Shown here piece after piece: positions 12,548-17,354 of a DNA stretch of 33,325 nt (position 1 is the stretch's first letter; each line of letters opens with the position of its first letter). The notes under the pieces were generated by a model. That model made no database searches and had not been told where the DNA came from. It saw nothing but the letters and a program-made list of their open reading frames with translations. The stretch is taken from contig SXSS01000065.1 in NCBI GenBank assembly GCA_005792145.1, positions 1 to 33,325 of the forward strand, given 5' to 3'. This DNA comes from Planctomycetia bacterium. GTDB lineage: Bacteria > Planctomycetota > Phycisphaerae > Phycisphaerales > SM1A02. Position numbers and translations under genes: made by a program.

Positions 12548-15500
12548 TCATTTCTTCCCGCAGCACTGTTTGTATTTTTTACCAGATCCACAGGGACAGA
12601 TCTCATTTCTCCCGACCGCCATCGGGCCACCGATCGGTACAACGACTTTCGGCGCGCGATTCATTGAAGTTCCAGATGCAGCCACTGCCGCCGCTGTCCG
12701 ACCTGTCGGTGCGCCGGCTTGCTCGGCGATTGCGATATCTCGCTCTTGCGCTTGCGTTGGGACCACCGATGCAATGGGAGCGGCGGCGGTTGATTCTGCG
12801 CTCTTTTCTGCAGTTTGATCGATTTCCGTTTCGGTTGTGACGACAGGTGGCGTAGCAGGGCGCATCGCTTGTGGCGACAACTTCCCCTTGAAAACTAAAT
12901 CAGTGACTCGCTCGCGCACATTGGAAAGCATCTCGCCGAACAATCTGGAAGATTCCTTCTTGAATTCAATCCGCGGATCCTTTTGGCTGAACGAACGGAA
13001 TGAAATCGAATCGCGCATCTGATCCATACTGTGCAAGTGATCTTTCCACGCTTGGTCGAGAATCTGGAGCAGCACAAAGCGCTCGAATTGTTCCAGTTCT
13101 TCGCGAAGCAAGCGCAGGAGTCTTTGTCGCAGGAAACTCTCTGGGTCGATCTTGACTTCAGTTCGTTCTGATTCGGTCAAGCGGATGAAAACGTTCTGAA
13201 CCAACCATCCGTCAACTGCATCGGTCATGACATCTGCGCTTTCAGCCGCACCAGGTGTTGCTGCGCGAAGTGCGGCAAGAATCCGAGTGACGCGATCATT
13301 GATGCGATTGGAATCCCATGTTTGCGCTTCAGTCAACAAGATTCGCCGAAGTTCGGCAGGCTCTGCGGATGGCAGTGCCTGTGGAGTCCAATTCAATTCG
13401 AAGCGACCCCGCGCCCAACCACAAAACTGAGTCAACGCCGCTTCAGGAAAAGCTTGGATATTGATATTCACGAATTCGATGGCGAAGTCGATTGGATACT
13501 CCAACTCTCGTTTGCGATATGCGGCACGAACGGCCTCTTGCAATCGGCGGGTTGCTTCAATTGGCTCGCGCATATCGCCCATCTTCTGCGCATCAAGCGG
13601 TGAACCAAGCATCCGTTCGGCCCAGTGCAGTAAATCCTTGGCACCGTATCCCGGCAGGAGATATGGTTCGAGCGGACTGAGATCGATCGTTTCAAACTTT
13701 GCATTTGATGCGGCCTCAAGGCGTTCAACAATTCCAAGTCGTCCTTCTTTCTCGATGATGTCATCTGTGATCACTACGCTGTATGTATTGAGCGCCCATT
13801 CAATCACTCCAGCACGATCCCATTCGGAAGGGTCAGAATCCTCGGGTATATATTCGCCGATGGTGACATTGATCTGTGAAGATGCCTCCTCAGGCGCATC
13901 GGTCAAAATTGTTTTCATCACTTGATCGCGGTCTTTTCCCTTGAATCGTTCGGCGTCGATCATGACTCCAAATGCCTCCCAGACCCACTGCGAGATCGCT
14001 CCAGGAATATGCATCGGCGAGAGATATGTTGCGACTGCGTCTGCAACAGCTTCGTCTAGAAACTTCAAGACAACATCTTTGATTGCTCGACCTTCGAGAA
14101 TCGGCTGACGACGACCATAAAAGTTTCGACGCTGAACTTCCATCGGTTCGTCATAATCCAGGATGCTCTTGCGTATCTGAAAGTTCCGCTCTTCAACTTT
14201 GCGTTGAGCTTTCTCGACCGCACGGGAGAGCATCGGCGCTTCGATCGCATCGCCTTCTTTCATTCCCATACGGCTGAGCACGTTGAGTGTGGTTCGTCCA
14301 GCGAACATCTTCATCAAATCGTCATCCAACGCGAGATAGAACCGCGTTTGACCTTCGTCTCCTTGCCGACCAGAACGGCCTCGAAGTTGATTGTCAATTC
14401 GGCGACTCTCGTGTCGTTCCGTTCCGACGATATGAAGTCCGCCGAGTTCGTCAACGGTTGGGAAGAATTTCAAGCGGTGAATGCTCCATCCAGCTTGATC
14501 AAGTTCAGATTCCAATGCTGCATTGGACATCGTTTGGATCTTCTTCGCAGGCAGATCACGCGCTTCAGTGACCCAGTGTTGCAACAATTTTCGTCGCACC
14601 TCGTCAGCACTCATCGCTTCGATTTCCTTGGCGGACAATCCCATGGATCGACTGGCGATGTGGCGATGAATGAGAACCAAACACGCTTCTTCGCCGGCAG
14701 CAGCATCCGCTTCGCGTGGCGCAATATCTCTGCGCTTCCAATGTTCAATCAATGCCGCGGGTTGCAGCGGAGTCAACTTGATGTCCGTACCACGGCCCGC
14801 CATGTTGGTGGCGATCATCACCGCTCCAAGTTGACCCGCACCGATGATGATTTCTGCTTCGCGTTCGTGCTGCTTTGCATTGAGAACTTCGTGGCGAATC
14901 CCATGTCTTTCCGTCAGCATTCGACTGAGCATCTCGCTTTTTTCCACACTCGTCGTTCCAACAAGCACGGGCGCTCCAGTGTCATGGATACGCTTGATTT
15001 CATCGACGATTCGTTCCCATTTATCTTTCTGCGACAAGAAGACAAGGTCTTGTCGATCAATCCGAACAATCGGAACATTGGTTGGAATCGACACAACCGA
15101 CAATCCATAGATTTCATGGAATTCAGTCGCTTCCGTATCCGCTGTTCCTGTCATTCCAGAGAGTCGCTTATAGAGTTTGAAATAATTTTGAATCGTGATG
15201 GTCGCCATCGTCTGCGTTTCTTCCTTGATACGCACGCCTTCCTTGGCTTCGACAGCTTGATGCAAACCGTCTGACCATTGTCGTCCGACCATCTTTCGAC
15301 CCGTATTCTGGTCAACGATCACGACTCCCAATTGTCCATCCTCGTCGGCTGCGACGACATAGTCACGGTCGAGTTGATAGACCGTATGCGCGCGCACAGA
15401 CTGTTCGAGAAGATGGGGCATATCCATATTTTCGCCGACATAAAACGAACCAATTTTCGCTTCTTTCTGTGCTTCTTCCACACCTTCATGAGTCAATGTC

Positions 15501-16711
15501 GCACGCTTCTTGTCCATTTCGAGTTCGTAATACTGGATGAATCGATCTCGTTCGCGTTCTAGAACTGGCAACTGCTTGCGCGTATCTTCGAAGCGTTTCT
15601 TCATCGCAGGGACTAAAGATTTGTCGCGAGCATTGCGAATGTCACCTTCCGCGCCAGCCATCGCCGCACGGCAATGTTGCACTTTGTCCTCGGCAGCCTG
15701 CCACTCTTTCTGCTTGCCAACAAGGTAAATCGCCAAGCGATTTGACAATTCATATCGCGGCTGAGCGTTGTACGCAGGCCCCGAAATAATCAACGGCGTT
15801 CGCGCTTCGTCGATCAGGGTCGAATCGACTTCGTCAACGATTGCAAAGTGGCGGGAACGCTGCACTTGATCGATTGCACGCACTTTCATGTTGTCGCGCA
15901 AATAGTCAAAGCCAAATTCGCTGGTGGTTCCATAGACCACATCGCAGGAGTATGCAGTTGCTTTTTCGCTTGGTCTCTGCATATGCATCGGATGAATCGC
16001 ACCGACAGTCAGGCCGACTGCATAAAAGAATGGAAATGTCCAATCGCGATCGCGCTGAACCAAATAGTCATTCACGGTGACGACATGAACCTGCTTCTCT
16101 TCGGAAGCCGCCAAATAGCACGCCAGAGGTCCAACGATTGTTTTTCCTTCGCCGGTTTTCATTTCGGCGATGCGGCCTTCGCTGAGGACAATTCCGCCAA
16201 TAATCTGCACATCGAATGGTCGAGCGCGAAAGGGTGGACGGCTTTCTGGCAGGAGTTCGCGGACTGCTTGATAGACCACGATTGGAATATCGATCAATTG
16301 CCACGCGGAAATATCACCGTGGCAACCTTGAAGGTCGCCTGAAGGTTCGCGCGGAGATGTTGCAGCCATTATCGCTTGAGTTTCGAAAAATGCCTTGCGA
16401 GCTGGTTCTGGAAGTCGCTGAGGATCGAATCCAAGTGCTGGGTTGAAGATATTTCGGATTCCAACGGAGCGGTCCATTGCTTCTCGTCCACACGCGAAGA
16501 TTTCAGGAATCATGTCGTATGGTTTTTCACCTTTGCGAACACGCTCGCGGAAAATATGAATCATCCCTCGAATCTCTGAATCGCTCATTGCGGCAAACTT
16601 GGCTTCGAGGCCGCTGACTTTATCGACGATGCGCAGATAGCGGCGCACCATGCGCTGGTTTTGAGTTCCGAATGTCTTGCGAATAAAAAAGTCAATAACT
16701 GGAATTGGCAT
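12548..16711 (-). CDS. secA: protein translocase ATPase SecA, enlarged form
   Basis: SecA drives preproteins through SecYEG. Core motifs are intact: M-K-T-G-E-G-K-T (184-191, Walker A), D-E-V-D (293-296, Walker B), M-A-G-R-G-T-D (637-643), then G-G-L-H-I-V-G-T-E-R-H from 757 with R-G-R-S-G-R-Q-G-D. W-K-D-H-L-H-S-M-D lies in the helical scaffold (Trp1222). The C-terminal zinc/SecB-binding tail has C-P-C-G-S-G-K-K-Y-K-Q-C-C. At 1387 residues it is about 500 longer than typical SecA. Extra material lies at about 87-164, a coiled-coil-like segment at about 315-405, 644-756, and roughly 200 residues between 865 and 1222. Enlarged SecA is known in planctomycetes. A structured leader and a small exported ORF lie directly upstream. 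Confidence 0.97.
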   Translation of the reverse strand: MPIPVIDFFIRKTFGTQNQRMVRRYLRIVDKVSGLEAKFAAMSDSEIRGMIHIFRERVRKGEKPYDMIPEIFACGREAMDRSVGIRNIFNPALGFDPQRLPEPARKAFFETQAIMAATSPREPSGDLQGCHGDISAWQLIDIPIVVYQAVRELLPESRPPFRARPFDVQIIGGIVLSEGRIAEMKTGEGKTIVGPLACYLAASEEKQVHVVTVNDYLVQRDRDWTFPFFYAVGLTVGAIHPMHMQRPSEKATAYSCDVVYGTTSEFGFDYLRDNMKVRAIDQVQRSRHFAIVDEVDSTLIDEARTPLIISGPAYNAQPRYELSNRLAIYLVGKQKEWQAAEDKVQHCRAAMAGAEGDIRNARDKSLVPAMKKRFEDTRKQLPVLERERDRFIQYYELEMDKKRATLTHEGVEEAQKEAKIGSFYVGENMDMPHLLEQSVRAHTVYQLDRDYVVAADEDGQLGVVIVDQNTGRKMVGRQWSDGLHQAVEAKEGVRIKEETQTMATITIQNYFKLYKRLSGMTGTADTEATEFHEIYGLSVVSIPTNVPIVRIDRQDLVFLSQKDKWERIVDEIKRIHDTGAPVLVGTTSVEKSEMLSRMLTERHGIRHEVLNAKQHEREAEIIIGAGQLGAVMIATNMAGRGTDIKLTPLQPAALIEHWKRRDIAPREADAAAGEEACLVLIHRHIASRSMGLSAKEIEAMSADEVRRKLLQHWVTEARDLPAKKIQTMSNAALESELDQAGWSIHRLKFFPTVDELGGLHIVGTERHESRRIDNQLRGRSGRQGDEGQTRFYLALDDDLMKMFAGRTTLNVLSRMGMKEGDAIEAPMLSRAVEKAQRKVEERNFQIRKSILDYDEPMEVQRRNFYGRRQPILEGRAIKDVVLKFLDEAVADAVATYLSPMHIPGAISQWVWEAFGVMIDAERFKGKDRDQVMKTILTDAPEEASSQINVTIGEYIPEDSDPSEWDRAGVIEWALNTYSVVITDDIIEKEGRLGIVERLEAASNAKFETIDLSPLEPYLLPGYGAKDLLHWAERMLGSPLDAQKMGDMREPIEATRRLQEAVRAAYRKRELEYPIDFAIEFVNINIQAFPEAALTQFCGWARGRFELNWTPQALPSAEPAELRRILLTEAQTWDSNRINDRVTRILAALRAATPGAAESADVMTDAVDGWLVQNVFIRLTESERTEVKIDPESFLRQRLLRLLREELEQFERFVLLQILDQAWKDHLHSMDQMRDSISFRSFSQKDPRIEFKKESSRLFGEMLSNVRERVTDLVFKGKLSPQAMRPATPPVVTTETEIDQTAEKSAESTAAAPIASVVPTQAQERDIAIAEQAGAPTGRTAAAVAASGTSMNRAPKVVVPIGGPMAVGRNEICPCGSGKKYKQCCGKK

Positions 16712-16732
16712 TTGAGAAAACTTTCAAGAAGA

Positions 16733-16872
16733 GGCGGAAGATTCCGCCGAGGTTTCATAAATAAGAAGTTGTACGCAGGGGACGCTTACATCAAGCGTCT
16801 TGGGAGTCCTAGGCCCTTCAGCGGGCGAGGAACTCATCAAGCCCGAACGGACGGAGGAGGAACTGCTCCCAA
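16733..16872 (-). promoter_or_regulatory. structured leader RNA upstream of secA
   Basis: In the transcribed (minus) sense four stems occur in order. The first is an outer stem TTGGGAG/CTCCCAA (16866-16872 with 16800-16806), extendable by AGGA/TCCT across a small internal loop. Inside it is CGGGC/GCCCG (16841-16845 with 16822-16826), whose loop holds the stop codon of the small upstream ORF. Next is a perfect hairpin GACGCTT/AAGCGTC (16781-16799). Last is a perfect hairpin GGCGGAA/TTCCGCC (16733-16748) ending 21 nt before the secA ATG. None is followed by a U-tract, so these are not terminators. They are candidates for translational control of secA. Confidence 0.45.
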
Positions 16873-17139
16873 ACATGCGTCAATCGAAACCATTGACCAA
16901 AGATTTGTCAAAAATCCAGAGTTGCTGCTGTTCTTTGCTTTGCGAAAGCAAAGAGAGCCAGCTTGAATCGATCTTGCCGTAGCGGTGATGTCACTTTCCC
17001 CAAGCATGAAATCCGAATCGACAGCAACAATCTTGGAACCACCGAAAACGATGGAAGTTCCAGGGCAGACGAATGGCGCACCAAGTGCGGCAAGGGTCAG
17101 CAGCAGAGCAAAGAGAGTTGGGTGCAGAAGAGGAATCAC
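16837..17139 (-). CDS. possible exported leader peptide upstream of secA (SecM-like arrangement)
   Basis: This 100-codon frame starts at GTG 17139, with an in-frame stop just upstream, and ends 125 nt before secA on the same strand. The N-terminus looks like a signal peptide: hydrophobic residues 8-20 (T-L-F-A-L-L-L-T-L-A-A-L-G), then A-P-F and C25, although the n-region carries only His. The remainder has no recognised domain. The C-terminus contains F-L-T-N-L-W (76-81), Pro94-Pro95-Pro96 and finally V-R-A before TGA. Pro clusters and R-A motifs occur in known arrest peptides. A perfect 9-bp palindromic hairpin (16933-16953) lies within the coding part. It is not homologous to SecM in any way I can show. 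No good ribosome binding site is visible. Confidence 0.4.
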   Translation of the reverse strand: MIPLLHPTLFALLLTLAALGAPFVCPGTSIVFGGSKIVAVDSDFMLGESDITATARSIQAGSLCFRKAKNSSNSGFLTNLWSMVSIDACLGAVPPPSVRA

Positions 17140-17248
17140 GGTTCGTGCTATTGTGGCACCAATTCATCGTCTCGGCAAGTAAACTTGTATGCTTTTTGAT
17201 TGCTCTTCGTTTCATCTTTCGTTTTGTCTCAAGAATGGTCTTTTCATT

Positions 17249-17322
17249 GGGGTGGTAGCTCAGCGGTCCAGAGCCCCTGACTCATAATCGGTGAGACCTG
17301 GGTTCGAATCCCAGCCGCCCCA
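17249..17322 (+). tRNA. tRNA with CAT anticodon (elongator Met, possibly Ile2)
   Basis: The 74-nt cloverleaf has acceptor GGGGTGG paired with CCGCCCC and discriminator A. The D arm is GCTC/GAGC, the anticodon loop is CTCATAA, and the T arm has GGTTCGAATCC. It has a normal G1-C72 pair and lacks the G-C run of initiator anticodon stems, so it is not the initiator. A lysidine-modified tRNA-Ile2 cannot be excluded. CCA is not encoded. One anticodon-stem position (27-43) is mismatched. Confidence 0.9.
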
Positions 17323-17354
17323 TTTCACAGCGCGTGGGCGCTACTCTTCGCTTC

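Follow-up and report, generated by a model that had tools for sequence, protein, structure and literature searches.

The 100-codon open reading frame (uORF) that precedes secA in the 33,325-nucleotide stretch of planctomycete DNA analyzed here (the window) belongs to the published uA_LPPP group (Fujiwara, Tsuji, Yoshida, Takada, and Chiba, 2024, Nat Commun 15:2711, PMC10987492), a family that was thus already known. We consider it likely, from comparative evidence, that its product is a secretion-monitoring translation-arrest peptide of this group, in a form specific to the genus of the window. Comparison of loci demonstrates a coding ORF before secA that is conserved as a signal-like N-terminus, a varying spacer, and a C-terminal Pro-Pro-Pro (PPP). 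The first-pass annotation of this locus had proposed a SecM-like arrest peptide. The arrest-peptide idea is very probably right, of a kind known since 2024, and gains from a conserved, coding ORF with a signal-like N-terminus and a C-terminal PPP, but the parallels with SecM and the stem mechanism did not hold. Its suggestion of an independent planctomycete version was correct as to the lineage, but this version had already been published as uA_LPPP.

In the reading that we prefer, the uORF would be translated from a leaderless or nearly leaderless mRNA, and the ribosome would stall with Pro95 in the P-site while the Sec machinery exerts no pull on the signal-bearing chain; active export would allow translation of the uORF to resume. 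Arrest would raise secA expression through a step that may be unlike the Shine-Dalgarno (SD) unmasking of SecM, as the genus has no SD-like 4-mer before secA and the start region in the window is predicted to fold open already.

Layout of the secA locus and occurrence of the PPP-ending frame

The uORF (100 codons plus stop; 16837..17139, minus strand) is classified as a secA-upstream arrest-peptide gene of the uA_LPPP group, leucine-less variant, based on its translation, conservation, and dN/dS. As the first-pass annotation had noted, it starts with a GTG (at 17139) and ends 125 nt before the secA ATG (16711). The presumed regulated gene, secA (12548..16711, minus strand), encodes a 1387 amino acid protein and was confirmed by the Pfam domains SecA_DEAD, P-loop_SecA, SecA_PP_bind, SecA_SW, and SEC-C. 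The uORF itself has no match in Pfam, and in Rfam only the tRNAs of the window reach the gathering score, the uORF region giving sub-threshold matches. Its predicted product begins with a signal-like hydrophobic N-terminus (residues 1-25; 17065..17139, minus strand), a feature described before that proved to be conserved by dN/dS and hydrophobicity, with no Lys or Arg ahead of the hydrophobic stretch. The C-terminus reads ...CLGAVPPPSVRA, with V-P-P-P at residues 93-96 of 100, and the previously listed F76-x4-W81, PPP at 94-96, and terminal V-R-A are all found in the translation. Trp81 (16897..16899, minus strand) precedes the first Pro of PPP by 13 residues, and Pro94-Pro95-Pro96 (16852..16860, minus strand), near the stop, is the presumed arrest site; Pro95 is placed in the P-site by comparison with the toeprint obtained for a uA_LPPP homologue (PMC10987492). 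The window has 266 open frames that are 60 codons or longer, and of these only the uORF has PPP in its last 15 codons.

A promoter-like element (TTGCCG - 17 nt - CACAAT; 17150..17178, minus strand) precedes the uORF, in a region bounded by a divergent tRNA-Met gene (CAT; 17248..17323, plus strand; ARAGORN, Rfam). It is kept in the genus, with TGCCACAAT in 17 of 18 loci and TGGCACAAT in the remaining one (L005), and a simple sigma-70 scan returned no site at 17150..17178. In the window, 10 nt separate the -10-like element from the GTG, and the first in-frame start lies 6-12 nt downstream of this element across the genus loci, suggesting that the uORF mRNA is probably leaderless or nearly so. 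This arrangement likely explains why no ribosome-binding site is visible before the uORF, as had been remarked earlier. Separately, the stretch CTGCGTRCAWCTT (16766-16779, minus strand; about 55-68 nt before secA) is kept in loci L003-L009 amid varying surroundings, and is perhaps a second promoter or a protein site.

To describe how widely such a frame precedes secA, we applied a fixed rule: a frame of at least 60 codons, with its stop at most 330 nt from secA and PPP in its last 15 residues. The rule was derived from the first 38 loci and then extended to the rest; cut-offs differed slightly between passes (last 15-16 residues; at least 40 or at least 60 codons), and the counts given here follow the 60-codon/15-residue version. 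The genus sample comprised the secA-upstream DNA of 18 of 19 genomes, the 19th (G018) having no secA match. The family set (101 loci) consisted of the genus, other genomes of the family (80 of 129 non-genus genomes with a secA match, taken roughly best scores first), and three named planctomycete contigs (L041-L043, from MAGs of Planctomycetota, Phycisphaerales, and Phycisphaeraceae); as L041, by its length and C-terminus, is apparently the same contig as L173 (from genome G030 of the window's family), the 101 loci amount to 100 distinct ones. The wider sample included 80 of 297 genomes, namely the complete 49 from four other families in the order and 31 from other orders of the class.

All 101 loci of the family set carry the frame, its stop 54-292 nt before secA, as do 48 of 49 loci in the four other families of the order and 10 of 11 in two further families of the class (f8 and f10). 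The sampled part of the order thus reaches 149 of 150, the sole miss (L212) being only 430 bases long and located where a contig ends. For the remainder of the class the count was 0 of 20 loci, and for secA of other phyla 1 of 72. Dinucleotide shuffles (20) of the family-set sequences satisfied the rule in a mean of 1.95 of 101 cases, and the reverse strand in 0/101 (family set), 2/49 (four other families), 1/11 (f8 and f10), and 0/20 (rest of class). Several individual loci are worth recording. The single hit outside the class, in an Acidobacteriaceae MAG (L082), may be chance or an independent case; f24 has a PPP frame at 386 nt from secA, beyond the 330-nt limit; f10, from another order, mostly shows R-L-P-P-P before the uORF stop (5/6); and f8, also from another order, shows Q-M-P-P-P in 2/5 and L-L-P-P-P in 1/5, while in its locus L240 PPP is followed by an 11-residue tail and could be due to chance. 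Upstream of secDF and yidC, inspected in four genus genomes each, no PPP-ending frame of at least 60 codons was found within 350 nt, with some gene starts uncertain; the monitor therefore seems limited to secA in those four genomes.

RNA structure and possible routes to secA

Two hairpins lie between the uORF and secA. The first (HP1; 16804..16835, minus strand) begins at the second base after the uORF stop, and its position is kept in most genus loci while its sequence varies: at this offset, z is below -1.5 in 12 of 18 loci, vs 0-8 of 18 at 24 other offsets. The second (HP2; 16733..16748, minus strand), of the type GCGGA....TCCGC, sits 22-37 nt before the secA ATG and has z below -1.5 in 14 of 18 genus loci at offset -48. 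Pairs changed on both sides give HP2 weak backing (2/6, one cell each, a value reached by 13 of 500 shuffles), as counted in 11 of 18 genus loci picked by eye for the GCGG form (L005 and L015-L020 left out). Outside the genus the hairpin signal after the stop is weak, with 41 of 141 loci at the best offset and 10-31 at others.

The front of a ribosome usually lies at +15/16 from the first base of the P-site codon. Measured in the same way from the presumed P-site codon, HP1 starts at 22 nt, 6-7 nt ahead of this front, so that a ribosome arrested at PPP should spare HP1, which would be opened by a ribosome at the stop codon. By this geometry, the HP1 spacing is consistent with message protection by arrest. 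It is conceivable, though we hold this only weakly, that arrested and queued ribosomes at the 5' end, together with the two hairpins, protect the secA mRNA.

Transcription attenuation would offer another route, with arrest setting termination vs read-through at HP2 or another hairpin before secA. HP2 scored terminator-like in the window, is kept in 14 of 18 genus loci, and is followed by T6 in L008; nevertheless, terminator-like sites are not in excess (2 found vs 1.4 expected) and most relatives show no T run after HP2 by eye, and we regard attenuation as unlikely.

The first-pass annotation had instead favored a switch of the SecM type, in which a ribosome paused at the C-terminus melts a stem hiding the secA start. 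Gene order and peptide layout are indeed as in SecM, and the stems can be drawn in the window: the letters of the 7-bp arms, TTGGGAG (16872-16866) and CTCCCAA (16806-16800), and of the inner CGGGC/GCCCG pair around the stop codon are present. In loci L004-L006, the arm TTGGGAG could also pair, with several G-U pairs, with TTCTTGA 13-19 nt before secA. Yet full pairing of both stems is confined to the window, and none of five relatives pairs fully at the corresponding place (4-6 of 7 pairs near it for the longer stem and 3-4 of 5 for the inner one), so that the alignment upstream of secA retains the ORF with its C-terminal PPP but not these stems, which we rejected.

Folding was applied to the same question. 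Ribosome stalling in E. coli melts a stem that covers the start of secA. Used as a positive control, the E. coli secM-secA region gave an opening cost of 10.9 kcal/mol and a relief of 2.4-3.7 kcal/mol for ribosomes placed at positions between 12 nt upstream and 24 nt downstream of the stall, whereas in the window opening the secA start costs 3.6 kcal/mol and a ribosome at PPP relieves 0.01 kcal/mol, leaving no support for the claim that a paused ribosome frees secA by melting stems. In this purely thermodynamic test, which covered 146 of 159 loci (the genus plus loci whose stop lies less than 200 nt from secA), mean relief by a ribosome at PPP was 0.14 kcal/mol (-0.14 in the 18 genus loci and 0.34 in 38 loci of the four other families of the order), and a relief of at least 2 kcal/mol occurred in 7 of 146 loci, with similar figures for other ribosome positions (4-14 of 140-146). 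The secA start is itself little structured in the genus; outside it the start is more folded, yet is not relieved by a ribosome at PPP (mean opening cost 10.6 and relief 0.07 kcal/mol in 81 other family-set loci). An SD-like 4-mer precedes secA in 0 of 18 genus loci, vs 61 of the 83 other family-set loci and 25 of the 58 loci of the wider set, leaving none to hide in the genus. Unmasking of the SecM type was accordingly rejected and has, in our judgment, little chance of operating here; folding of the 146 loci (of 159) revealed no RNA element coupling arrest to secA.

Coding status and peptide architecture

The conserved uORF frame is present in 18 of 18 genus loci, and in the window and four close relatives (L003-L007) it has equal length and no indels. 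Counted from the first in-frame start that follows the -10-like element, it measures 98 or 100 codons in 17 genus loci, and 100 codons from the corresponding GTG in L005. The dN/dS analysis proposed in the first-pass annotation returned low values at both ends, with 0.08-0.13 for residues 1-25 and 0.13-0.16 for residues 77-96, against 0.56-0.62 for the spacer (residues 26-76), in four pairs with L003; in six other pairs with fewer changes, the spacer was again the highest of the three parts (0.30-0.71). Between L003 and L004, the non-synonymous share of changes was 0.56, vs a mean of 0.72 under random placement, and none of 2000 nulls was as low. As estimated from these substitutions, the uORF is under purifying selection at its signal-like N-terminus and its C-terminus, with relaxation in between, and this combination, conserved at signal and C-terminus with a free spacer, is that of a secretion monitor.

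The same architecture extends beyond the genus. Over 159 loci, the 12-residue stretch of highest hydrophobicity averages 2.63 on the Kyte-Doolittle scale, vs 1.78 for shuffles, and sits 29-129 residues (median 77) ahead of PPP, while the stop follows PPP by 2-7 codons, with one exception of 11 codons; within the genus, PPP ends 2-5 codons before the stop. The signal-like segment in the genus is short before its hydrophobic core and, as counted by eye, contains His-Pro in 14 of 18 loci.

These features bear on a different view, that the uORF encodes a small exported protein with a function of its own which sits before secA by chance. Such a protein would be expected to have a signal-like N-terminus and could well show the near-constant length seen in the genus (98-100 codons), but its would-be mature part is the least conserved (dN/dS 0.56-0.62 in the pairs with L003) and lacks a Pfam match, and beyond the signal, conservation is confined to the final residues, which adjoin the stop and precede secA; we find this view highly improbable. 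Least credible of all is that the conserved element is RNA or DNA, such as a C-rich Rho loading site or an anti-SD-like sequence, that merely reads as PPP: CCNCCNCCN is C-rich and lies near the end of translation, and a Rho RNA-binding domain is present in the genome, but frame and nearby stop are kept, non-synonymous changes are depleted, and third positions are free, the three Pro codons using all four third letters in 48 different 9-mers among 159 loci, which indicates that the peptide is conserved, not the RNA.

Our preferred reading, an arrest peptide of the uA_LPPP group, can also be compared with what is published. In the literature searched, PMC10987492 alone treats uA_LPPP, or stalling linked to secA of Phycisphaerales. 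According to the parts of that paper on which we draw, the group was collected from annotated genes by the presence of LPPP or XPPP within the last 15 residues, giving 52 sequences (45 LPPP and 7 XPPP), of which 50 with a predicted signal were kept, from the orders Phycisphaerales, UBA1161, and WQYP01 in Planctomycetota (Fujiwara et al., 2024). For one homologue, arrest was shown on B. subtilis ribosomes (fAP 1; in vivo TAI of 22.4), with weak stalling of E. coli ribosomes (0.51; 1.59); Leu110 and the prolines contribute on B. subtilis ribosomes, L110A weakening the arrest, and the toeprint of this L110-PPP homologue places the second Pro, Pro112, in the P-site (PMC10987492). Arrest is thus documented there for one Leu-bearing homologue, vs the Leu-less form considered here, and the same parts of the paper report induction of the downstream gene for uDF_RQH_Enterobacterales (secDF) and contain no such report for uA_LPPP (PMC10987492). 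Also to be set against the arrest reading are the absence of positive charge ahead of the signal-like segment and of the Trp in four genus loci.

The window uORF resembles the described uA_LPPP members in being an ORF directly upstream of secA, on the same strand, in Planctomycetota, with a C-terminal PPP and N-terminal sequences that are diverse across the group (PMC10987492). V-P-P-P at residues 93-96 falls within the last 15 residues, while the name-giving Leu is replaced by Val93; since the paper itself accepts XPPP (PMC10987492), we regard the Leu-less uORF as a variant of the group and not as a non-member. The genus departs from the published form in having no Leu before PPP, in W-x12-PPP (14/18), in its near-fixed length, and in its near-leaderless start.

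The SecM arrest sequence is F-x4-W-I-x4-G-I-R-A-G-P. Like SecM of Escherichia coli, the window uORF lies upstream of secA and has a signal-like N-terminus, a presumed stall motif a few codons from the stop, and an upstream Trp, but it does not carry this arrest sequence, lacking G-I-R-A-G-P, and folding gave no unmasking of the secA start in the genus. The proposed sequence parallel was likewise discarded: a Phe at -18 from PPP occurs in 1 of 18 genus loci, so that F-x4-W is not a shared feature, the terminal V-R-A is found in the window only, and the Trp stands at a different distance (14 residues to the presumed P-site Pro here vs 10 from the SecM Trp to Gly165, counted from the translation). 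The RAPP-like peptides (ApdA, ApdP, ApcA, and the RQH family) show, as is presumed for the window uORF, proline-dependent arrest upstream of sec/yidC genes, with the P-site at the third residue of a four-residue motif (PMC10987492), but the window C-terminus, A-V-P-P-P, has no R/Q/H-A/G-P-P and does not match R/Q/H-A/G-P/G-P/G.

The leucine-less variant and EF-P

No genus locus (0/18) has Leu before PPP, a residue that 77 of the 83 other family-set loci and 50 of the 58 loci of the wider set do have there. The residue found in its place is Val (7 loci, as in the window), Ala (5), Asn (4), Thr (1), or Gly (1). Other positions are held: 14 of 18 loci have the Trp exactly at position -13 from PPP, position -4 from PPP is Leu, Phe, or Val in 18 of 18, and position -2 is Ala in 16 of 18. 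L017-L020, the four loci that lack the Trp, group as a single clade, with F-A-A/G-N-PPP, and the genus as a whole is one clade with support 100/99 in a tree of SecA N-termini (38 loci). From these conserved positions, the Trp at -13, the hydrophobic residue at -4, and the Ala at -2 may be read as a replacement tunnel contact for the lost Leu. As far as the literature searched reaches, a Leu-less, Trp-bearing, near-leaderless form seems undescribed as such.

EF-P relieves polyproline stalls. It was found in 16 of 19 genus genomes, so that PPP alone may not stall the ribosome there; it was not found in the window's own genome (a 90% complete assembly), which we attribute to an assembly gap given its presence in those 16. 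Two EF-P tip types occur in the family, KPGKGPAYV (K-type) and TPGNLRAFV (N-type), and all 16 EF-P genes of the genus are N-type. Both occur together in two genomes, G027 and G037. EF-P with Asn or another residue in place of Lys or Arg at the tip has been described (PMC11611912). Across 98 family loci, PPP is preceded by a residue other than Leu in 19 of 42 that have N-type only, 15 of these from the window's genus, vs 1 of 45 with K-type only; two loci have both tips (both Leu) and nine have no EF-P match (four not Leu). Counted by genus, non-Leu occurs in 5 of 12 with N-type only vs 1 of 21 with K-type only (Fisher p 0.016, a post hoc value uncorrected for the relatedness of the genera). 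In genera other than the window's, Leu is replaced by Val, Gln, Met, and Met (N-type) and by Ile (K-type), Met and Ile being mild changes. EF-P tip type thus seems associated with the residue before PPP in these sequences, which we take as a lead.

We tentatively propose, as a possibility more doubtful than the arrest reading itself, that the uA_LPPP arrest code has been rebuilt in this genus, with Leu giving way to a deep-tunnel Trp plus Phi-x-A-x-PPP, with an EF-P tip of PGNLRAF and not KPGKG, and with the secA output taken off SD unmasking. If true, arrest motif, polyproline factor, and regulatory output would have changed together, with non-Leu motifs mainly where EF-P has no Lys tip. The atypical signal could slow export of the peptide and so make a more sensitive sensor, and how arrest controls secA with no Shine-Dalgarno sequence to hide is now a testable point. 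The published arrest-peptide family is nearly universal in the sampled part of the order, and the natural series from LPPP to the Leu-less W-x12-PPP bears on which residues make polyproline stall despite EF-P.
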